From: a virus | DNA length: 22,112 nucleotides | IMG/VR virus record: IMGVR_UViG_3300036770_002324 | Coordinates: 1 to 22,112 of that record | Direction: 5' to 3' (one strand) | Part shown: positions 5,150 through 13,981 of the stretch, piece by piece | Layout: each line of letters begins with the position of its first letter | Numbering within the stretch: position 1 is the first letter of the stretch | Translations under genes and position numbers: made by a program | Notes under the pieces: model-generated | What the model was told of the DNA's origin: nothing | The model's database searches: none | What the model saw: only the letters and a program-made list of their open reading frames with translations

Positions 5150-8100
5150 ATGGCACTTCAAACAGCTACTAACCCCCAAACTGGGGAAAGCGTTGCGCTG
5201 GTTGGTAACCAATGGGTGCCCATAACTCAAACAGCTACTAACCCAAAAACCGGGGCAAAAGCCTATTTGGTTAACAACGAATGGATGGTGGATGAAGCCA
5301 TTGCAAAACCCACTACGCCGACTACGTCTGCTCCGGCAGAAACTAAAGCAAGACCTGAAACTGTTACATCCGCTACGGATGAGTTTTCTGCGTTTATGCC
5401 TGCAATATCTGATGAACCTGCGTATCGCAGTGTTATGGAAGGCGCATATTTCACACCAAAAGAAAAACAAACAGAAATTGGAAAACGTCTTGGTTTAGGT
5501 GCGGGGCCGATAAGCACTTCTACAGTGCAAAAAGCGGCTGATGTACGCGCAGGTAAGGCGCCCCCAACTGAATCTGTAGTTGCTAAAGTAGCAGCGGCTT
5601 TAGAAGAACAACAAGCTCCATCCCTTGAAGAAATGCTGTACAAGCAAGGGGCAGCAGATAGGGAACGATTGGTACAAAAACAACTTGAGACAAGGGATCG
5701 TCGTAAATTTGCAGAAGACTACCCAATTCTTGCATCAGCAGGAGCTGGTGCTGCATCAAATATTGTTGGTTTGCTTAATGCCAAAAACGTATTAGCTGAC
5801 GGATTTAACGTCACTTTTGTAAACCCTTTGTTACAAGGGTTAGGGTTAGATCCTTTACCTTCTACGGGTAAAGCGTTTGGTACTGAGTATTTTGATAAAG
5901 CAGCTAAAGACTACACACCTAAAATTGCCAAAAAAGAATTAGGTGAAGCTTGGAAAGAAAGCCAGTTTGCTCCGTGGTTAATGTCTAAGCTTGCGTCAAA
6001 TTCAGTATCAATAGCGCAATCACTAACTGCTGCGTTTTCTTTACCTTTAAGAGCTGTTTTGCTACCTAGCATGGGTTTGCAGACTGCTGGGTCTAGTTAC
6101 GCAGAGGGGGATGACCCAAGAGTTGCTTTAGCAAAAGGTCTTGTCGAAGTCGGTACAGAAATGCTGCCGTTAAAAGCTTTTGACAAAATTACTGACACTT
6201 TGAAAGGTATGTCTGTAGCAAAACAAAACGCTGTTTTGGCTGTAGCAGGTAAAAGATTATTGCAAGCAGGCGGGGCAATTACAGTAAACGGACTTGTAAA
6301 CGCAATCGAAGAAACTGCCGCGCAACTTGGGGGTAACGTATTAGATAAGTATTTTCAAGGTAAACAAATTGAATTAGACAAGGGGCTTGCTGAAGCTGCG
6401 ATAGTTGGTGCAGCTTCCGGTAAAGTCATGTCTATTCCCCATGTTGCGGGTATAGCCACGGGTGCATATGAACCAAACATACAGGCGCAAAGATTACTAA
6501 GAGATGTATTAGAAGGTGGGCAGTTTACTAAAGAAGGTGCGGATGCTGAGATCGCTGAAACCCTTAGAGCTGCTCCTACCACAAGCAGAAGAATTAGTCC
6601 TGTTGCAACCACCATAGCGGCAGCAGAAGCTGAACGACTAAAACAAAAACCTATTACACCTGTAGACTTAGAAGTACAAGGCACCGCAGCCGACTTAGAG
6701 CGCAAAGAACCAAAACTTACAACTGACGTTGCTCCACCAGAGCGTAAAGAGCGTACGCTTGATGCGGAACTAACCAAAGAGCAACAAATAAATGTTTTAA
6801 CTCAGCAGCTTGTTCAGACCCGTGGAATGGCTGAAGAGGATGCGCGTAAGATCGCAACCATGCGAGTGCTTGCATCAGAAGTAGAGGCTCAGAGGCGTGC
6901 GGCTGAAGCGGAAGAAGAAAGAAAAGCAAAGCTACGTGAAGGGTTGGTTATACCTGACGACGACCCAAGAGTGCAGGCTTATGCTGGAGAACTACTTGAC
7001 AATAATGTCGTTAGCACTAAAGCTGAGGCTATTGCGTTAGCCAAAAAACGGGTCGCTGATGAGGAGGCCGCAGATGCAGAAGATGTTACTGAGCCTCCCG
7101 TTGCAGGAGGTGGAGAGGGCGTTTCAGTTTCTGGCGGACCCTCTGGAGGAGCACCCACCGAAGGAGCTGCACCATCTATCGACACAGGAGTGGCAGGCAC
7201 TGAGCTTCCTGCTGAACCAACTGTACCACGAGAAGAGCCTCCACCTGCTGAATTAAAACTTGCACGCGATACGCTATACGACCAAGCAAAAAATTTAGTA
7301 ATTGAAAGCCAGCGAGCAAGTGTTTCATTAATTCAACGTGAGTTAAGAGTTGGATACAACCGCGCACAACGCATTCTTGAGCAGTTAGAAGCAGAAGGTG
7401 TAGTTTCCGCAAAAGATGCCAATCGTGTCCGTTCAGTTTTAATTGAAAAACCAACGCCTAAAGAGGAAGCCCCCAGTGTCACTGCGCCCACAGAAACCGT
7501 CGAAGCAGAAGAAACGCGAGCAGCAGCGCCTGTTGAAGGAGCAGAAGTGGCAGAACCTGCCGCAGAAACTCCTAGAACCAAGGCTATCAAACGACTTTCA
7601 GAGCTTACAGAAGAAGCTAGGAAACTAGAATCAGACAAACTTACGGGTTTTGCCAATGAGATCGACCCAGAAGTAAACAAAGAAACGATAGCCAACTACG
7701 CTGATGAAGACCTTGACGAATTAGTAAAAGATATTGAACGGCAAGTTGCTCGGCAAAAACGAGGCGCAGCAACATTTGATCTTTTTCCTGTTTTAACAGG
7801 TGATGGTTTTATTACATATGTAGATAACGACGAAATAGCAGCAGCGTATGGTAAAGAAAATAAACCCCCAGAATTAGAACAAGTTGATTTTGAAAATCTG
7901 TTGATTGCGCCGACTATGAACCAAGCTAAGGTAAAGCTTGGTCTGCCCGAATCGGCAAAAATGTCTACCTTGATGCAAACTGCATCTGATAAGGGGTATG
8001 ACGGTATTACGTTTAAAAGCTCAACAGGTCAGCAATATTTATTTTTCCCATATCAACGTCCATTTGAAAGTGCAAGCCCTTCGACTGCATTAAGTGGTGC

Positions 8101-11100
8101 GCCTGTTAATGAGCGCCTAAACAAAGTTAGCAATGCTGTTCAAGCTTTGACCGTTGTTGCACAAACAGGGGATGACTTACAAAAAGCATTGGCTAACAGA
8201 TTTAAGTCTGTAGCTACGAACGTGCCTGTTGTTGTGCTTGAACAAAACACGCCGCTGCCAAAACAGATTGCAGACAACAAAGCTTTGAAAGATAGTTGGG
8301 ATGTTGCTAACGCTATGTACGTTGGTCCAGCGTATGGTCAGCCGACTATATATTTACGTGGTGCTTCGTTTGGTGACCAGCAAAGTGTCAACAATGTAGA
8401 TGTGCTGCACGAGAGTGCTCACGCTGCGCTTGATAAAAAGCTAATCACTGCCGAGAACATGGCAGAAACCCAGGGTGTTGTTACTGGGGTGAGTAAAGAT
8501 CCGCTAGTACAGGGGTACATGGAGCTACAAGAAACAATGATGCTTGCTCAGCAAGCATACGACGAAGCAGTAAAAAACAACACAATTGACCCCCAAGTGC
8601 TTGAGCTTGGCGAAACACTTAACGTATTCAATAGCCCCCGTGAGTTTGCAGCCTACGGCACATCTAATCCGTATTTTGTTAAGTTTCTTAAGTCGGTAAA
8701 AACGCCAGATAAGTACAGCTCAACAGGTCGGGACAAGACACTGTTTACTAAGTTTGTTGAAGCTGTTCGCAAGATTCTTGGGCTTGCACCCAACCAATTC
8801 AATGCGCTTTCTGATTTGTTTGACATTACCGACAGGATTGCATCCATGCAGGTTCGGCCTGCACAAGAAGTTATTGGCCTGCGCGGTAGGCAGCTTAAGA
8901 CTGCTAAAGAACGCCAAGAGCAACAGAAACCATCGTTGGCTGCAAAGAAACCCGTTTCACAAACACTAACAGCTACGCCTTCTGCAAATGTAAAACGCAT
9001 GGCAAAAATGTTGGGCGCTAAACTTTATGGCACTCCAGACAAGATAGCTGAAGTGTCAATTAAAGAGCTGTTTCAAAATTCTTTTGACGCAATTAAAGGT
9101 GGTTTTGAAGAAGGACTTCAAACAACGGGCGATATAAAAATAAAAATAGATGAAAAGGATAGGTCTGTTACCATTATTGATGACGGCCCTGGTATGCCAG
9201 CTAGCGTTATGGGCAATCAATTTTTACAAATTGCTGGAACTGTAAAAAAGACAAAACGTGCGTCCGGTGGGCTGGGCGTTGCAAAGATGTTGTTTTTGTT
9301 TGAAAACAAAGAATTAGAAGTATTGTCTTTAAACAATGGCGAGATAGCTCGTATGGTTACCAGTGGAGAGGAGCTTAAAGAATCATTTGACGACCCCAGC
9401 AAATCTCCTAAAATTGAAATTACTTCTGACCCCAAAGTTGTTAAACAATACACAAAATCAACATTTCCTGAAGGGCACGGTACGTTAATACGTGTTGTAA
9501 TTCCTGAAAATTATCTTGACGAATCAACTGGGGAAACTAAAGATATACCATTTAATACATGGGATTTAACACATAGTCAATCTCTTCAACACAGCCCGTT
9601 ATTTGAAAATATTAATGTGCTGCTAGACCGAGGCTATGGTTACGACACACTTCCGTTAGGTAATAATTTTCCAATAGATGACTATACTGTCTTTTCTAAA
9701 GTTAAATTTAATTGGGGTGAAGCACGTATTTATATATCAAAAGACGAATTATTTTACGCGCCTTTTGAAAATACTTACATATTATCAAACGGCATATATC
9801 AGTTTGGTACTTCAATTAAAGATAAACCTGGGTTTGGCGCAAAAAATATTAAAAGAAATTTTTACATTGACGTATCGCCTAATGAAAATGTAAAACCAGA
9901 AGACCCTGGCTACCCATTTGATTTAAATAGACAAAGATTTTCTCCCGTTGCTCAAAAAGATTTTGATAATATTTTTAAATACGTAACTCTTACGTTTGCC
10001 CAAGCTGAGTATGGTAAAGATGTACAAAGTTTTGGGGTGGTGCAGTACATAGAACCTGACGGTAAATTAAGTCCTTCTGAAGAGCTTAGACCTGAAATAC
10101 CACCAGCCCCAACTGGGCTTACGCTTATTAAACCTACAGACAAGGTAGAAGTTAAAGACGGGATAATGTACGTAAATAATAGGCAAATTCCAGAGCTGTC
10201 TGTGGATGATCTGTCTAAAGTTAAAATAGAAATTGACGAACTTAAAATCCCGCAAGATAAAATTGATTCCACACGGGTTATGGTTCACGATAACCTTGTT
10301 AAAACATTAAGCGCGGATGAACTAGACGCTTCATCCATACCTCGGACAGACGTTGTTAGTTACGAAAAAGACGACACTGGAGTTATAACTGCGGGTAAAG
10401 TGCCGTTTACTGCAATAGCACGAGAAAAATTTGGTTCTCGGTTTGACGCTTACTTAAAAGAAGTAGGCGACATATTTATGCAGTTGCGCGAAGTATTGGT
10501 AATGTCTGACCCAAGCTATGCCAATTTAGAAAAAGAAGCAATCGGTGTAAGTTTTGATAAAGAATATCTTGGGGTAAGCATACGTGTCCCGTTTAGTGGG
10601 TCTTTCTTAAACCCTGCGTCTACGGATCTAGCGGATAAAGGAACACCTGCTCAAATTGCTGTGTCCATGATTGGCACGATGATCCATGAGCTAGCACATT
10701 TTAAAATACGTAATCATGGTTCAGATTTTGCTAAGGAAATGCAACGCGACATTATGTATTTAGAGACGATGCCTGGGTTTGATCTGGCAGACGTAAAGAA
10801 CAGCTTTGCCAAGTTTTTAGCCAAGAACATGGACATTTATCAGTTCTTAAACAAGGAGTTTAGAAGTGGAGATCTTGAGTCTGTTGGAAAGCGCTTCTCG
10901 GACGCTAGCAACGAACAAGTTGGAGATGGTCGCATTACTGAACCAGTGGAAGTCGCTGGCGGAAAAGGAGAAGGGAAGCAAGGAGTACCCGGAGGCGCTA
11001 AACAAAGCCCTCAAGGTGTTGAATCGGTCGGCCTCCCTGCCGGAGTTTCTGGCGAAGCTGCGGAAAGAAGAGCAGAAAGAACCCAAAAAGAAATCGACAA

Positions 11101-13981
11101 TGCAGTAGATGAAGCCGTTGAGAAATACGAAACCTCTGCAAAGGCTGAGGGTTTAGCAAAACAAGCTTCACTTATATACAAACTACGTAATGGGAAAAAT
11201 ATTTTCCCTGCACTTGCAGCAATATGGCGGGGTACAAACTATCGCATTCGCCAAGGTTTAGTTAAGCCAGTAACAAACGATTTCCTAGCTGAATGGGCTG
11301 GGAAAGATATACCTCGTTTGCTAGAAGCTAATAAACAACTGCAAGAACTAAGCGGTATGGCCCAAAAACTTATGGGTGCGGCTGCTGATCTTTCACGTAG
11401 TATTAATAATGCGTTTAGCCAAGACCCTACGCTTCGCGCTAAGTTAGACCAAATTACAAAAGTAACGACCCTTGCACAGGTTGACCCCACTGCTGAAGTT
11501 CGTAGTGAACGTATAAACAAAATGTTTGAAGACCTTGGGCCAGAGGGAAGGCGTTTATACAAAGATATAAAGCAGTATTACGATGACATGGCCGAGCTTT
11601 ATAGCTCATTGCTTGACGATCAAATTAATGATGCCAACATCCCACCTGAAGCAAAAAAGAAGCTGTTGGCTTCAATTAGAAAAATGTACGAAGGTGAAGG
11701 TCGGCTTGACCCTTACTTTCCTTTGATGCGAGATGGGGATTTTTGGCTTTCCGTATACGTAGGAAACACAAAACAGTTCTTCATGTTCCCAACAATGGCT
11801 GAGCGTGATGCTGTTGCTGCTCAGATGGCTGCTGAGCGTAAAGATGATTTAGATAACCTACTTGAAACCAAACGGTTTGAAATCGGCAACGACTTACGCA
11901 AGTTAAGGGAAGCGTCTACAAGACCGATGAACGGCCAACACCCTAGCGCAATTCTGAAAGCTACTTTTGATTTGATTGATAACGCCGACTTCACAGACAT
12001 TACCGCTCGTGAAGACATGAAAGATGCTGTGTATCAGTTATATCTACGCACGATGCCAGAACAGTCTTTCAGAAAGCAATTTATTACTCGTAAAGGGTAT
12101 GCAGGTTTTCGTACCGATTTGCTTCGAGACTTTAACGAAACATCGTTAAGAATGTCACTGCAACTTGCTCGGCTCAAGTACGCACCTAAGTTACGTAATA
12201 CGTTGTCGGCTGCTCGTGACTCTATACAAAATCGTCCAGAGCTTGAGCCTTTCATGTCTGAAATGGAAGCGCGAGTATCCCAGACGCTTAATCCTGATAT
12301 TCCCGGTGTGCTTGACAAAGTAGCTGGCTTTATTAACAAGGCTTCGTTTATCTATTACCTTTCCGGTGCGTCTTCTGCGCTATTGCAACCACTTGGTATT
12401 TTCCAAACAGGCATTCCTATACTTGGTGCTCGGCACGGATACCCAGAAACAGCCGCAGAAATGGCTAAGTTAATGAGGGTATGGGATCAATACGGTATGA
12501 CACGTAAGACTGCAACAGGTAGTTCTGTTTGGTCGCCACCTTCAATAATGAATGCTTCTGGCCTCACGGCAGATGAACGTGCTGCTGTAGAAAGTATGTT
12601 GGCTAGAGATGTAACCCAAAACACTTACGCCCGTGCGTTGTTTGATTATAAGAATGTACCCACTGAAGAATTTGGTTCTGTGGCGCAGCGTGGAAAGCGT
12701 TATGCAAACATAGCAGTTGGTGGGTTGCTGCATTCGACTGAAAGACTTTCCCGTGAGATTTTATTCTTAGCTTCGTATCGATTATCTAAACGCAAGAATA
12801 TGTCTAATGAAGCTGCGATAGACCAAGCAGTGCAAGACACTAATGATGCGCTTGGTAATTATGGTGAGTACAACCGCCCGATGGTTATGCGTAATGCAGG
12901 CGGTAAGATTATGTTGCAGTTTCAAATGTACCCACTGCATGTAACTCTGTACTTGCTTAAAAACTTTAAGCGCATGATCTTCGGCCTTAACGGAGAAGGC
13001 AGAGCTGAAGCTGCAAAAATATTCTGGGGTACGATGGCAACCACTTGGATGCTTGCTGGAGCTGCTGGTTTACCTATGTTCAGTGTAGTGATGGGGCTAC
13101 TAGGGTTGGCTTGGAGTAACGCCGACGATGACGAAAAACCAAAAGATGTTAAAGGGTTAAATTTTGAGCTTTGGTTCCGTACGGTGTTCCTACCCGAAGT
13201 GCTTGGTGACTACAAAATTAACGGTAAAAGTTTAAGTGATATTGTTGAACGTGGGCCTACAAACGCGCTTACTGGGTGGGACTTGTCTTCTCGCACACAG
13301 CTTAACGACCTGTGGTTCCGTGATGTTAAGGAAACCAAAACAGCCAGAGAAGAGCTGCAAGCCTACGCTATTGAGAAAGCTGGCCCCGGTGTGAACATGG
13401 TGCTCAATCTTGCCGACTCGTATGAGGCTTTCCGAAATGGAGATTACCAAAAGGGCGTAGAGAAGATGTCTCCTGCGCTGATACGTAACTTTATACTTAC
13501 ACATAAGTACGCTACTGAAGGCGCTAAAGACAATAAAGGTGCTCAGATTATGAGCAAGGATGCCTTTACGACAGGTGAACTTATTGGTCAGGCTATTGGG
13601 TTTCGTTCAGACCTTCTTGCCAACACACAAAACGTGACGTTCAAACTTATCGGTATTCAGCAACGCATTGAGAACGAACGCCAGAAGCTATTTGACAACA
13701 TCGACCGTGAATACCGCACGCGAGACTTTAAGGCTTACAACCAACTAATTACCAAAGACCTCGTTGCATTTAACAAAAAGTATCCTTCGTTTAGGATTGA
13801 TGTTGAACAGCTTCAAGACTCGTTGGAGCGTAGAGCTAAAGACCGTGGTGAGTCTTGGCGTGGTCTGCGGTTGTCAGAAAAGAATGCAGCGTTGCTTGCC
13901 CCTGCTGCTGCACCATCACGTAAGGCGATGGCTGAACGTGAACGTGAGGCGAAAAAAATCCCGACGGGGGGTCGGGATTAA
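5150..13981 (+). CDS. Giant polyvalent phage virion protein (FtsK-gamma, two zincins, GHKL ATPase, PLxRFG-type)
   Basis: This 2943-aa multidomain protein is probably packaged in the virion and ejected into the host. Domain order: two 23-residue repeats (5-25, 28-48); hydrophobic/helical region about 195-440; charged linker; FtsK-gamma winged helix about 706-767 (VGYNRAQRILEQLEAEG); possible ADP-ribosyltransferase-like stretch about 877-972; zincin H1087-E-S-A-H1091; GHKL ATPase from about 1285, with E1306/N1310/D1313, DDGPGM 1344-1349 and SGGLG 1372-1376; second zincin H1846-ELA-H1850 with HGSDF at 1856-1860; helical region; PLxRFG-like YFPLMRDGDFW 2189-2199; hydrophobic segments about 2393-2427 and 2629-2658. 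Such mixtures of enzymatic domains joined by Gly/Pro-rich linkers match the published phage polyvalent protein class. The ATG lacks a strong SD and lies 5 bases after the upstream stop, suggesting coupled translation. The zincins may process the polypeptide or attack host proteins; this is inference. Confidence 0.88.
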   Translation: MALQTATNPQTGESVALVGNQWVPITQTATNPKTGAKAYLVNNEWMVDEAIAKPTTPTTSAPAETKARPETVTSATDEFSAFMPAISDEPAYRSVMEGAYFTPKEKQTEIGKRLGLGAGPISTSTVQKAADVRAGKAPPTESVVAKVAAALEEQQAPSLEEMLYKQGAADRERLVQKQLETRDRRKFAEDYPILASAGAGAASNIVGLLNAKNVLADGFNVTFVNPLLQGLGLDPLPSTGKAFGTEYFDKAAKDYTPKIAKKELGEAWKESQFAPWLMSKLASNSVSIAQSLTAAFSLPLRAVLLPSMGLQTAGSSYAEGDDPRVALAKGLVEVGTEMLPLKAFDKITDTLKGMSVAKQNAVLAVAGKRLLQAGGAITVNGLVNAIEETAAQLGGNVLDKYFQGKQIELDKGLAEAAIVGAASGKVMSIPHVAGIATGAYEPNIQAQRLLRDVLEGGQFTKEGADAEIAETLRAAPTTSRRISPVATTIAAAEAERLKQKPITPVDLEVQGTAADLERKEPKLTTDVAPPERKERTLDAELTKEQQINVLTQQLVQTRGMAEEDARKIATMRVLASEVEAQRRAAEAEEERKAKLREGLVIPDDDPRVQAYAGELLDNNVVSTKAEAIALAKKRVADEEAADAEDVTEPPVAGGGEGVSVSGGPSGGAPTEGAAPSIDTGVAGTELPAEPTVPREEPPPAELKLARDTLYDQAKNLVIESQRASVSLIQRELRVGYNRAQRILEQLEAEGVVSAKDANRVRSVLIEKPTPKEEAPSVTAPTETVEAEETRAAAPVEGAEVAEPAAETPRTKAIKRLSELTEEARKLESDKLTGFANEIDPEVNKETIANYADEDLDELVKDIERQVARQKRGAATFDLFPVLTGDGFITYVDNDEIAAAYGKENKPPELEQVDFENLLIAPTMNQAKVKLGLPESAKMSTLMQTASDKGYDGITFKSSTGQQYLFFPYQRPFESASPSTALSGAPVNERLNKVSNAVQALTVVAQTGDDLQKALANRFKSVATNVPVVVLEQNTPLPKQIADNKALKDSWDVANAMYVGPAYGQPTIYLRGASFGDQQSVNNVDVLHESAHAALDKKLITAENMAETQGVVTGVSKDPLVQGYMELQETMMLAQQAYDEAVKNNTIDPQVLELGETLNVFNSPREFAAYGTSNPYFVKFLKSVKTPDKYSSTGRDKTLFTKFVEAVRKILGLAPNQFNALSDLFDITDRIASMQVRPAQEVIGLRGRQLKTAKERQEQQKPSLAAKKPVSQTLTATPSANVKRMAKMLGAKLYGTPDKIAEVSIKELFQNSFDAIKGGFEEGLQTTGDIKIKIDEKDRSVTIIDDGPGMPASVMGNQFLQIAGTVKKTKRASGGLGVAKMLFLFENKELEVLSLNNGEIARMVTSGEELKESFDDPSKSPKIEITSDPKVVKQYTKSTFPEGHGTLIRVVIPENYLDESTGETKDIPFNTWDLTHSQSLQHSPLFENINVLLDRGYGYDTLPLGNNFPIDDYTVFSKVKFNWGEARIYISKDELFYAPFENTYILSNGIYQFGTSIKDKPGFGAKNIKRNFYIDVSPNENVKPEDPGYPFDLNRQRFSPVAQKDFDNIFKYVTLTFAQAEYGKDVQSFGVVQYIEPDGKLSPSEELRPEIPPAPTGLTLIKPTDKVEVKDGIMYVNNRQIPELSVDDLSKVKIEIDELKIPQDKIDSTRVMVHDNLVKTLSADELDASSIPRTDVVSYEKDDTGVITAGKVPFTAIAREKFGSRFDAYLKEVGDIFMQLREVLVMSDPSYANLEKEAIGVSFDKEYLGVSIRVPFSGSFLNPASTDLADKGTPAQIAVSMIGTMIHELAHFKIRNHGSDFAKEMQRDIMYLETMPGFDLADVKNSFAKFLAKNMDIYQFLNKEFRSGDLESVGKRFSDASNEQVGDGRITEPVEVAGGKGEGKQGVPGGAKQSPQGVESVGLPAGVSGEAAERRAERTQKEIDNAVDEAVEKYETSAKAEGLAKQASLIYKLRNGKNIFPALAAIWRGTNYRIRQGLVKPVTNDFLAEWAGKDIPRLLEANKQLQELSGMAQKLMGAAADLSRSINNAFSQDPTLRAKLDQITKVTTLAQVDPTAEVRSERINKMFEDLGPEGRRLYKDIKQYYDDMAELYSSLLDDQINDANIPPEAKKKLLASIRKMYEGEGRLDPYFPLMRDGDFWLSVYVGNTKQFFMFPTMAERDAVAAQMAAERKDDLDNLLETKRFEIGNDLRKLREASTRPMNGQHPSAILKATFDLIDNADFTDITAREDMKDAVYQLYLRTMPEQSFRKQFITRKGYAGFRTDLLRDFNETSLRMSLQLARLKYAPKLRNTLSAARDSIQNRPELEPFMSEMEARVSQTLNPDIPGVLDKVAGFINKASFIYYLSGASSALLQPLGIFQTGIPILGARHGYPETAAEMAKLMRVWDQYGMTRKTATGSSVWSPPSIMNASGLTADERAAVESMLARDVTQNTYARALFDYKNVPTEEFGSVAQRGKRYANIAVGGLLHSTERLSREILFLASYRLSKRKNMSNEAAIDQAVQDTNDALGNYGEYNRPMVMRNAGGKIMLQFQMYPLHVTLYLLKNFKRMIFGLNGEGRAEAAKIFWGTMATTWMLAGAAGLPMFSVVMGLLGLAWSNADDDEKPKDVKGLNFELWFRTVFLPEVLGDYKINGKSLSDIVERGPTNALTGWDLSSRTQLNDLWFRDVKETKTAREELQAYAIEKAGPGVNMVLNLADSYEAFRNGDYQKGVEKMSPALIRNFILTHKYATEGAKDNKGAQIMSKDAFTTGELIGQAIGFRSDLLANTQNVTFKLIGIQQRIENERQKLFDNIDREYRTRDFKAYNQLITKDLVAFNKKYPSFRIDVEQLQDSLERRAKDRGESWRGLRLSEKNAALLAPAAAPSRKAMAEREREAKKIPTGGRD
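5159..5293 (+). repeat. Two tandem 69-base repeats encoding a 23-residue motif
   Basis: The 17-base string CAAACAGCTACTAACCC occurs at 5159 and again at 5228, exactly 69 bases apart. It encodes two copies of the pattern TATNPxTGxxxxLVxNxW at residues 5-22 and 28-45 of the giant protein. Outside this string the DNA copies differ, mostly while keeping the protein pattern, so the duplication is old or the repeat is maintained by selection. The small Trp/Asn-containing repeat looks like a binding or assembly tag at the extreme N-terminus. Its function is unknown. Confidence 0.7.
13952..13979 (-). terminator. Intrinsic terminator of the leftward replication operon
   Basis: AATCCCGAC (13957-13965) and GTCGGGATT (13971-13979) form a perfect 9-bp stem around a five-base G loop. 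Read on the - strand, the stem ends in seven T residues (complement of the A run 13952-13958). That is the stem-plus-U-tract form of a rho-independent terminator. On the + strand no U tract follows, so it should act on leftward transcripts. It lies inside the last codons and stop of the 2943-aa + strand gene, about 60 bases beyond the stop of the last - strand gene. Confidence 0.75.

Follow-up and report, generated by a model that had tools for sequence, protein, structure and literature searches.

A polyvalent-type protein of an environmental phage

The window, the whole 22,112-nucleotide stretch analyzed here (IMG/VR virus record IMGVR_UViG_3300036770_002324, positions 1 to 22,112), is a 22-kb piece of an environmental tailed-phage genome. 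It contains a polyvalent-type phage ORF of 2943 amino acids at 5150..13981 (+) with a PLxRFG/DarB-like C-terminus (NCBIfam tail-700, E = 1.5e-118; PHROG 10089, E = 9e-66). The PLxRFG (tail-700) region is located in the last quarter of the ORF (11711..13885, +; E = 1.5e-118). Polyvalent proteins sensu Iyer et al. (2017) are very large ORFs that combine multiple unrelated domains with polyvalent-associated families at the C-terminus. The 2943-residue ORF had these features; it carries FtsK_gamma, HATPase_c_3, and tail-700, and LPD39 scored just below the cut-off. A preliminary description of this DNA had placed an FtsK gamma domain in a phage virion polyvalent protein, and the carrier was confirmed as a large polyvalent phage protein of the PLxRFG/DarB-like type.

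PHROG 10089, the family matched by the C-terminal region, is "DarB-like" antirestriction. DarB is recognized by a dyad of adenine methyltransferase and SWI2/SNF2 helicase. The ORF shares the C-terminal region with phage P1 DarB and PHROG 10089, but the dyad was not found in it: a family profile search gave no methyltransferase or SNF2 family at significant E, and the window encodes SNF2 in a different ORF. PADLOC returned no defence-system match.

A GHKL (HATPase_c-type) ATPase domain was found at 9065..9490 (+), with all four motifs present (NSFDA, DDGPGM, GGLGVAK, and GHGTLI). Scanning viral contigs with the HATPase region recovered only the lineage of the window. The terms HATPase, HSP90, and histidine kinase are absent from the text of Iyer et al. 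(PMC5512222). Two HExxH metallopeptidase-like motifs were observed in the ORF, HESAH at 8408-8422 (+) and HELAH at 10685-10699 (+), the latter inside a weak YgjP-like match. At the N-terminus, the repeat TATNPxTGxxxxLVxNxW occurs in two copies (5162-5260, +); it also opens the otherwise different polyvalent protein of locus L238. The close relatives L003 and L004 have, in place of the N-terminal hydrophobic region of the window protein (residues ~88-505; 5411-6664), one that looks unrelated (21-29% identity).

A 43-kb relative, G002, has its polyvalent gene, TerL, and portal all on one strand; should this genome be circularly permuted, the polyvalent gene would close the late run. TerL was nearest to those of phage DSL-LC04 and Pelagibacter phages HTVC027P and HTVC023P. 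Judged from gene order and family, virion packaging and ejection of the 2943-residue protein are plausible.

The ORF contains an FtsK gamma domain and no FtsK motor

The FtsK gamma winged-helix domain occupies residues 706-765 (7265..7444, +) and was recovered by profile, structure-sequence, and fold matches. Pfam PF09397 (FtsK_gamma) matched these residues of the full ORF with E = 8.2e-24 and 83.5 bits, and a six-frame search gave 90.4 bits at 7265-7444 (+) with no stops; the curated cut-off is 30.6 bits. The preliminary description had put the winged helix at 7267-7450, which was correct within a few bases. Among solved structures, the sequence search gave E. coli FtsK gamma 2J5P with E = 7e-15, and the closest solved sequences were all FtsK gamma.

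The domain was modeled using AlphaFold with 48 sequences (the window and fetched loci) as input, and pLDDT was at least about 90 over the core. Foldseek ranked FtsK gamma crystal structures at positions 1-13. Superposition on the KOPS-bound Pseudomonas aeruginosa FtsK gamma 2VE9_A with VIA-align gave Z = 12.4 and an rmsd of 0.8 Å over 62 residues, whereas the best winged helix other than FtsK gamma reached Z 7.6. The predicted winged-helix fold was thus borne out by the model.

No FtsK motor (PF01580) was found when the window and four related contigs were searched, in agreement with the earlier view that the gamma stands here without one. The PRK10263 match was limited to residues 707-768, and the translocase motor that marks FtsK/SpoIIIE proteins was not seen in the ORF. 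Similar to FtsK/SpoIIIE gamma (PF09397; 2J5P, 2VE9) in sequence (about 50% identity), fold, KOPS triad, and XerD contacts, the domain of the window differs in lacking the alpha/beta motor, in being internal to a 2943-residue phage protein, and in having Gln at position 1299 and no wing glycine. On profile and model evidence, it is a genuine FtsK gamma copy without a motor in a very large phage protein, which is probably virion-carried.

Recent capture from a host FtsK was also considered. No recent donor was evident, because the best fetched bacterial matches were only 50-64% identical; the best E-value among them belonged to Dechloromonas (59% identity). Small minus-strand ORFs overlapping the gamma stretch (7176-7454 and 7333-7695) are mechanical.

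Recognition residues are kept and the domain is under purifying selection

The recognition helix GYNRAQRILEQLE (residues 735-747; 7352..7390, +) contains the equivalents of E. coli FtsK R1300, E1303, and E1306. The R1300A/E1303A/E1306A triple mutant of E. coli FtsK was built as a KOPS-blind protein (PMC2680272). The triad was R, E, and E in the window, in L003 and L004, and in the distant relative L256, indicating that the helix is intact, as had been proposed, and that the DNA-contacting residues were not lost in close homologs.

The segment QRELRVGYN (residues 729-737; 7334..7360, +) is the counterpart of E. coli FtsK Q1288-N1296, which contacts XerD. In FtsK, the contacts are made by Q1288, R1289, R1292, and N1296, and I1293 and G1294 add van der Waals contacts (PMC5052618). 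All four side chains were present in the window, which was identical to E. coli FtsK at KOPS-triad and XerD-contact residues except for I1293, replaced by Val. One FtsK gamma surface serves both DNA and XerD (PMC5052618), so conservation alone does not separate the two roles.

The wing DANRVRS (7415..7435, +) has Arg in place of the conserved Gly1318, which is Leu in L003 and L004 and Ser in L256. In the recognition helix, the unusual Gln replaces Ala1299. Both positions are otherwise near-invariant in bacterial and viral sequences; these were collected using peptide patterns including GYNRA, which overstates conservation at the positions of the patterns. As the wing Gly and Ala1299 depart from the bacterial consensus, the specificity of the window gamma may be shifted or weakened.

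The close relatives L002-L004 keep the gamma (93-100% identical over the 91-residue query). Ten synonymous and 3-4 amino-acid changes were counted in its 62 codons, which are small counts. Its dN/dS was about 0.08-0.11, compared with 0.67-0.80 for the nearly unconstrained linker before it. The gamma is under purifying selection, and this contrast within one protein argues for a maintained function.

The gamma sits in an exchangeable slot

A Pro/Glu-rich linker (residues 600-705; 6947..7264, +) precedes the slot and is common at the DNA level to otherwise diverged relatives. The module slot itself spans about residues 690-985 (7217..8104, +), and its content varied. In the window it holds the gamma followed by a further domain, in L184 a coiled segment, and in L256 the gamma followed by an L184-type coiled segment. 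The module after the gamma (residues about 869-986) had no Pfam match.

A scan of viral contigs with the PLxRFG region gave 80 loci. The gamma was found in the ORFs of only four of them, three from the lineage of the window (L185, L186, and L194) and the distant L256, whose C-terminal region is 29% identical to that of the window; many of the 80 ORFs are 5'-truncated, and absence was counted only for ORFs closed at the 5' end. Among these, L184 (1989 residues, C-terminal region ~74% identical) had no gamma. When 50 related contigs were searched whole, L256 gave the one gamma match and the other 49 gave none. The domain is dispensable, being missing from most relatives.

L184 and L256 share 498 bases over the coiled segment at 96% identity, and the remainder is far more diverged. 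Between the window and L184, DNA identity was 90% in the linker before the slot and 75% in the C-terminal region. The shared linker and coiled-segment DNA points to module exchange. By these comparisons, the gamma is an accessory, gained or lost as a module in a slot that phages exchange.

The L256 gamma grouped with that of the window (tree support 0.94). It keeps R1300, E1303, and E1306, and has Asp at R1292, Ser at G1294, and Phe at Y1295. Since R1292 is Asp while the KOPS triad is kept, L256 offers a hint, weak because it is a single sequence, that selection acts on the KOPS-type contacts and not on the XerD surface, favoring DNA binding over XerD docking.

Most closely related viral gammas lack a motor

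The FtsK-gamma scan returned 521 related viral stretches, and the best 80 were kept. Selection was for similarity to the query and used peptide patterns, and proportions within the set are not those of all viruses. Within this set, 78 of 80 gammas were motorless; an FtsK motor was in the same ORF only in L044 and L078. The families among the best 80 of 521, identified from single members, included RdgC fusions, DUF5906/VapE-type primase-helicases, phrog_6576 proteins, and a ParB-like protein. Three polyvalent-type gamma groups were among them, represented by the window, L049, and L082. The L049 protein has transglycosylase, methyltransferase, and SNF2 domains. In the phrog_6576-type proteins of L031 and L034, the gamma adjoins a weak ribosome-modulation-factor (Rmf)-like stretch. 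In L040 (8293-9603), the protein that carries it gives a ParB-like partition match.

RdgC proteins with a C-terminal FtsK gamma were observed in viral loci L016, L017, L043, L066, and L012 and in plasmid loci H103 and H104. They are motorless like the window protein, but their gamma is attached C-terminally to a recombination protein that binds DNA. A tree built on 59 positions placed polyvalent gammas beside the RdgC-fused ones as the nearest gammas (support 0.81); this link is tentative because the alignment is so short.

An FtsK winged helix in polyvalent proteins is not a new idea, since Iyer et al. (2017) already listed it among their infrequent DNA-binding domains and predicted dsDNA binding (PMC5512222). 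Like the window protein, theirs are giant multi-domain proteins of mobile elements with a rare DNA-binding module; the window protein differs from them (e.g., Cupriavidus WP_029307715, known by description) in its GHKL ATPase motifs and PLxRFG C-terminus. A small terminase with FtsK_gamma was reported in 2021, and lone phage FtsK_gamma genes were noted there as having no known role (PMC8190038). That terminase, from Bacillus phages Sam46 and Sam112, carries the gamma at its N-terminus and is likewise a motorless gamma on a DNA-acting phage protein. Unlike the window protein, it is a packaging initiator, with another partner and another host group. New in the present analysis are the signs of exchange at the slot, the difference in dN/dS between gamma and linker, the altered XerD-facing residues of L256, and the count of viral gammas that lack a motor.

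A DNA tether is the preferred explanation

KOPS has the sequence GGGCAGGG. In G002, GGGNAGGG occurred 3 times against 2.3-3.1 expected, which is about chance. In a 35-kb relative (G003), it occurred 5 times against about 2 expected, with P 0.04-0.07 across nulls, which is marginal at most. The true motif of the gamma could differ from the one counted. The suggestion that the protein steers phage DNA by KOPS gained no support from these two contigs, where no convincing GGGNAGGG excess was seen.

We favor, with a probability of about 0.6, the explanation that the gamma is a portable, motorless DNA tether with KOPS-like recognition, acquired horizontally and inserted where a large phage protein exchanges modules. 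The protein carrying it would probably be packaged and ejected with the genome. The gamma would then tether this protein to dsDNA at KOPS-type sites, which are short, G-rich, and polar. The tethered cargo would be the GHKL ATPase, the metallopeptidase-like motifs, and the PLxRFG C-terminus, and the target would be either the incoming phage genome or the host chromosome. In favor of a tether are the family and fold match, the KOPS triad kept in the window and in L256, the dN/dS contrast with the linker, and the dsDNA binding predicted by Iyer et al. (PMC5512222). Motorless viral gammas also occur on DNA-acting partners, namely RdgC, primase-helicase, ParB-like, and other polyvalent proteins, and terminase (PMC8190038). 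On grounds of stoichiometry, a few ejected copies should suffice for tethering to one genome but hardly for titrating the FtsK or XerD of the host. Against it, one gamma per chain may bind weakly, as each KOPS is bound by three gamma domains in FtsK (PMC5052618). The lack of convincing KOPS enrichment, the absence of the gamma from most relatives, and the altered positions 1299 and 1318 also count against a tether.

Alternatively, the gamma might be a DNA-binding wedge acting in the virion, in packaging, or in ejection, for example by keeping the protein attached to packaged DNA, and might play no part at host KOPS. A gene that comes last in a putative late operon, with TerL and portal on the same strand in G002, is consistent with this, as are the FtsK gamma fused to a Bacillus phage small terminase (PMC8190038) and the contigs without convincing KOPS bias. 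However, most relatives with the same C-terminal region do without the gamma, so it is not generally needed for virion assembly, and we regard such a wedge as unlikely.

Docking on host XerD, which the preliminary description had proposed and which would either activate or block Xer recombination at dif, appears less probable still. It is consistent with the presence of every E. coli XerD-contact side chain in the window. Nine residues of the XerD surface of FtsK gamma (1289-1297, RQFRIGYNR), fused to XerC, are enough to activate XerCD (PMC5052618). However, the XerD loop is also part of the DNA-binding surface, and its conservation does not separate the roles. Neither a dif-like site above shuffled sequence nor a tyrosine recombinase was found in the phage contigs, which may be incomplete, and interference with dif recombination thus found no support. 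A virion protein would also exist in few copies. The Asp and Ser of L256 at R1292 and G1294, beside an unchanged KOPS triad, speak against XerD docking as the selected function. Least probable is a recently captured domain decaying without a selected function, which would fit the patchy occurrence and the departures at 1299 and 1318 but is opposed by the excess of synonymous changes in the gamma next to a close-to-neutral linker and by key residues kept even in L256.

Implications for giant ejected phage proteins

Target choice by the giant proteins that phages eject is, to our knowledge, hardly understood at all. The DNA code of the gamma is well understood in bacteria, and the domain could offer a handle on one targeting step of these proteins. 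A broader proposal, which we hold only tentatively and consider doubtful, is that FtsK gamma is a general mobile DNA-addressing module of phages, which in polyvalent proteins delivers an ejected enzyme to KOPS-type sites. If so, after one or more captures and the loss of its motor, the gamma would have spread between virion polyvalent proteins, RdgC, primase-helicases, ParB-like proteins, and terminases, and it would bring an ejected enzyme to host or phage DNA of a particular polarity or in a particular region. Most close viral gammas are motorless and belong to other proteins that act on DNA, a pattern suggestive of a reusable DNA-binding part of phages with a predictable specificity.
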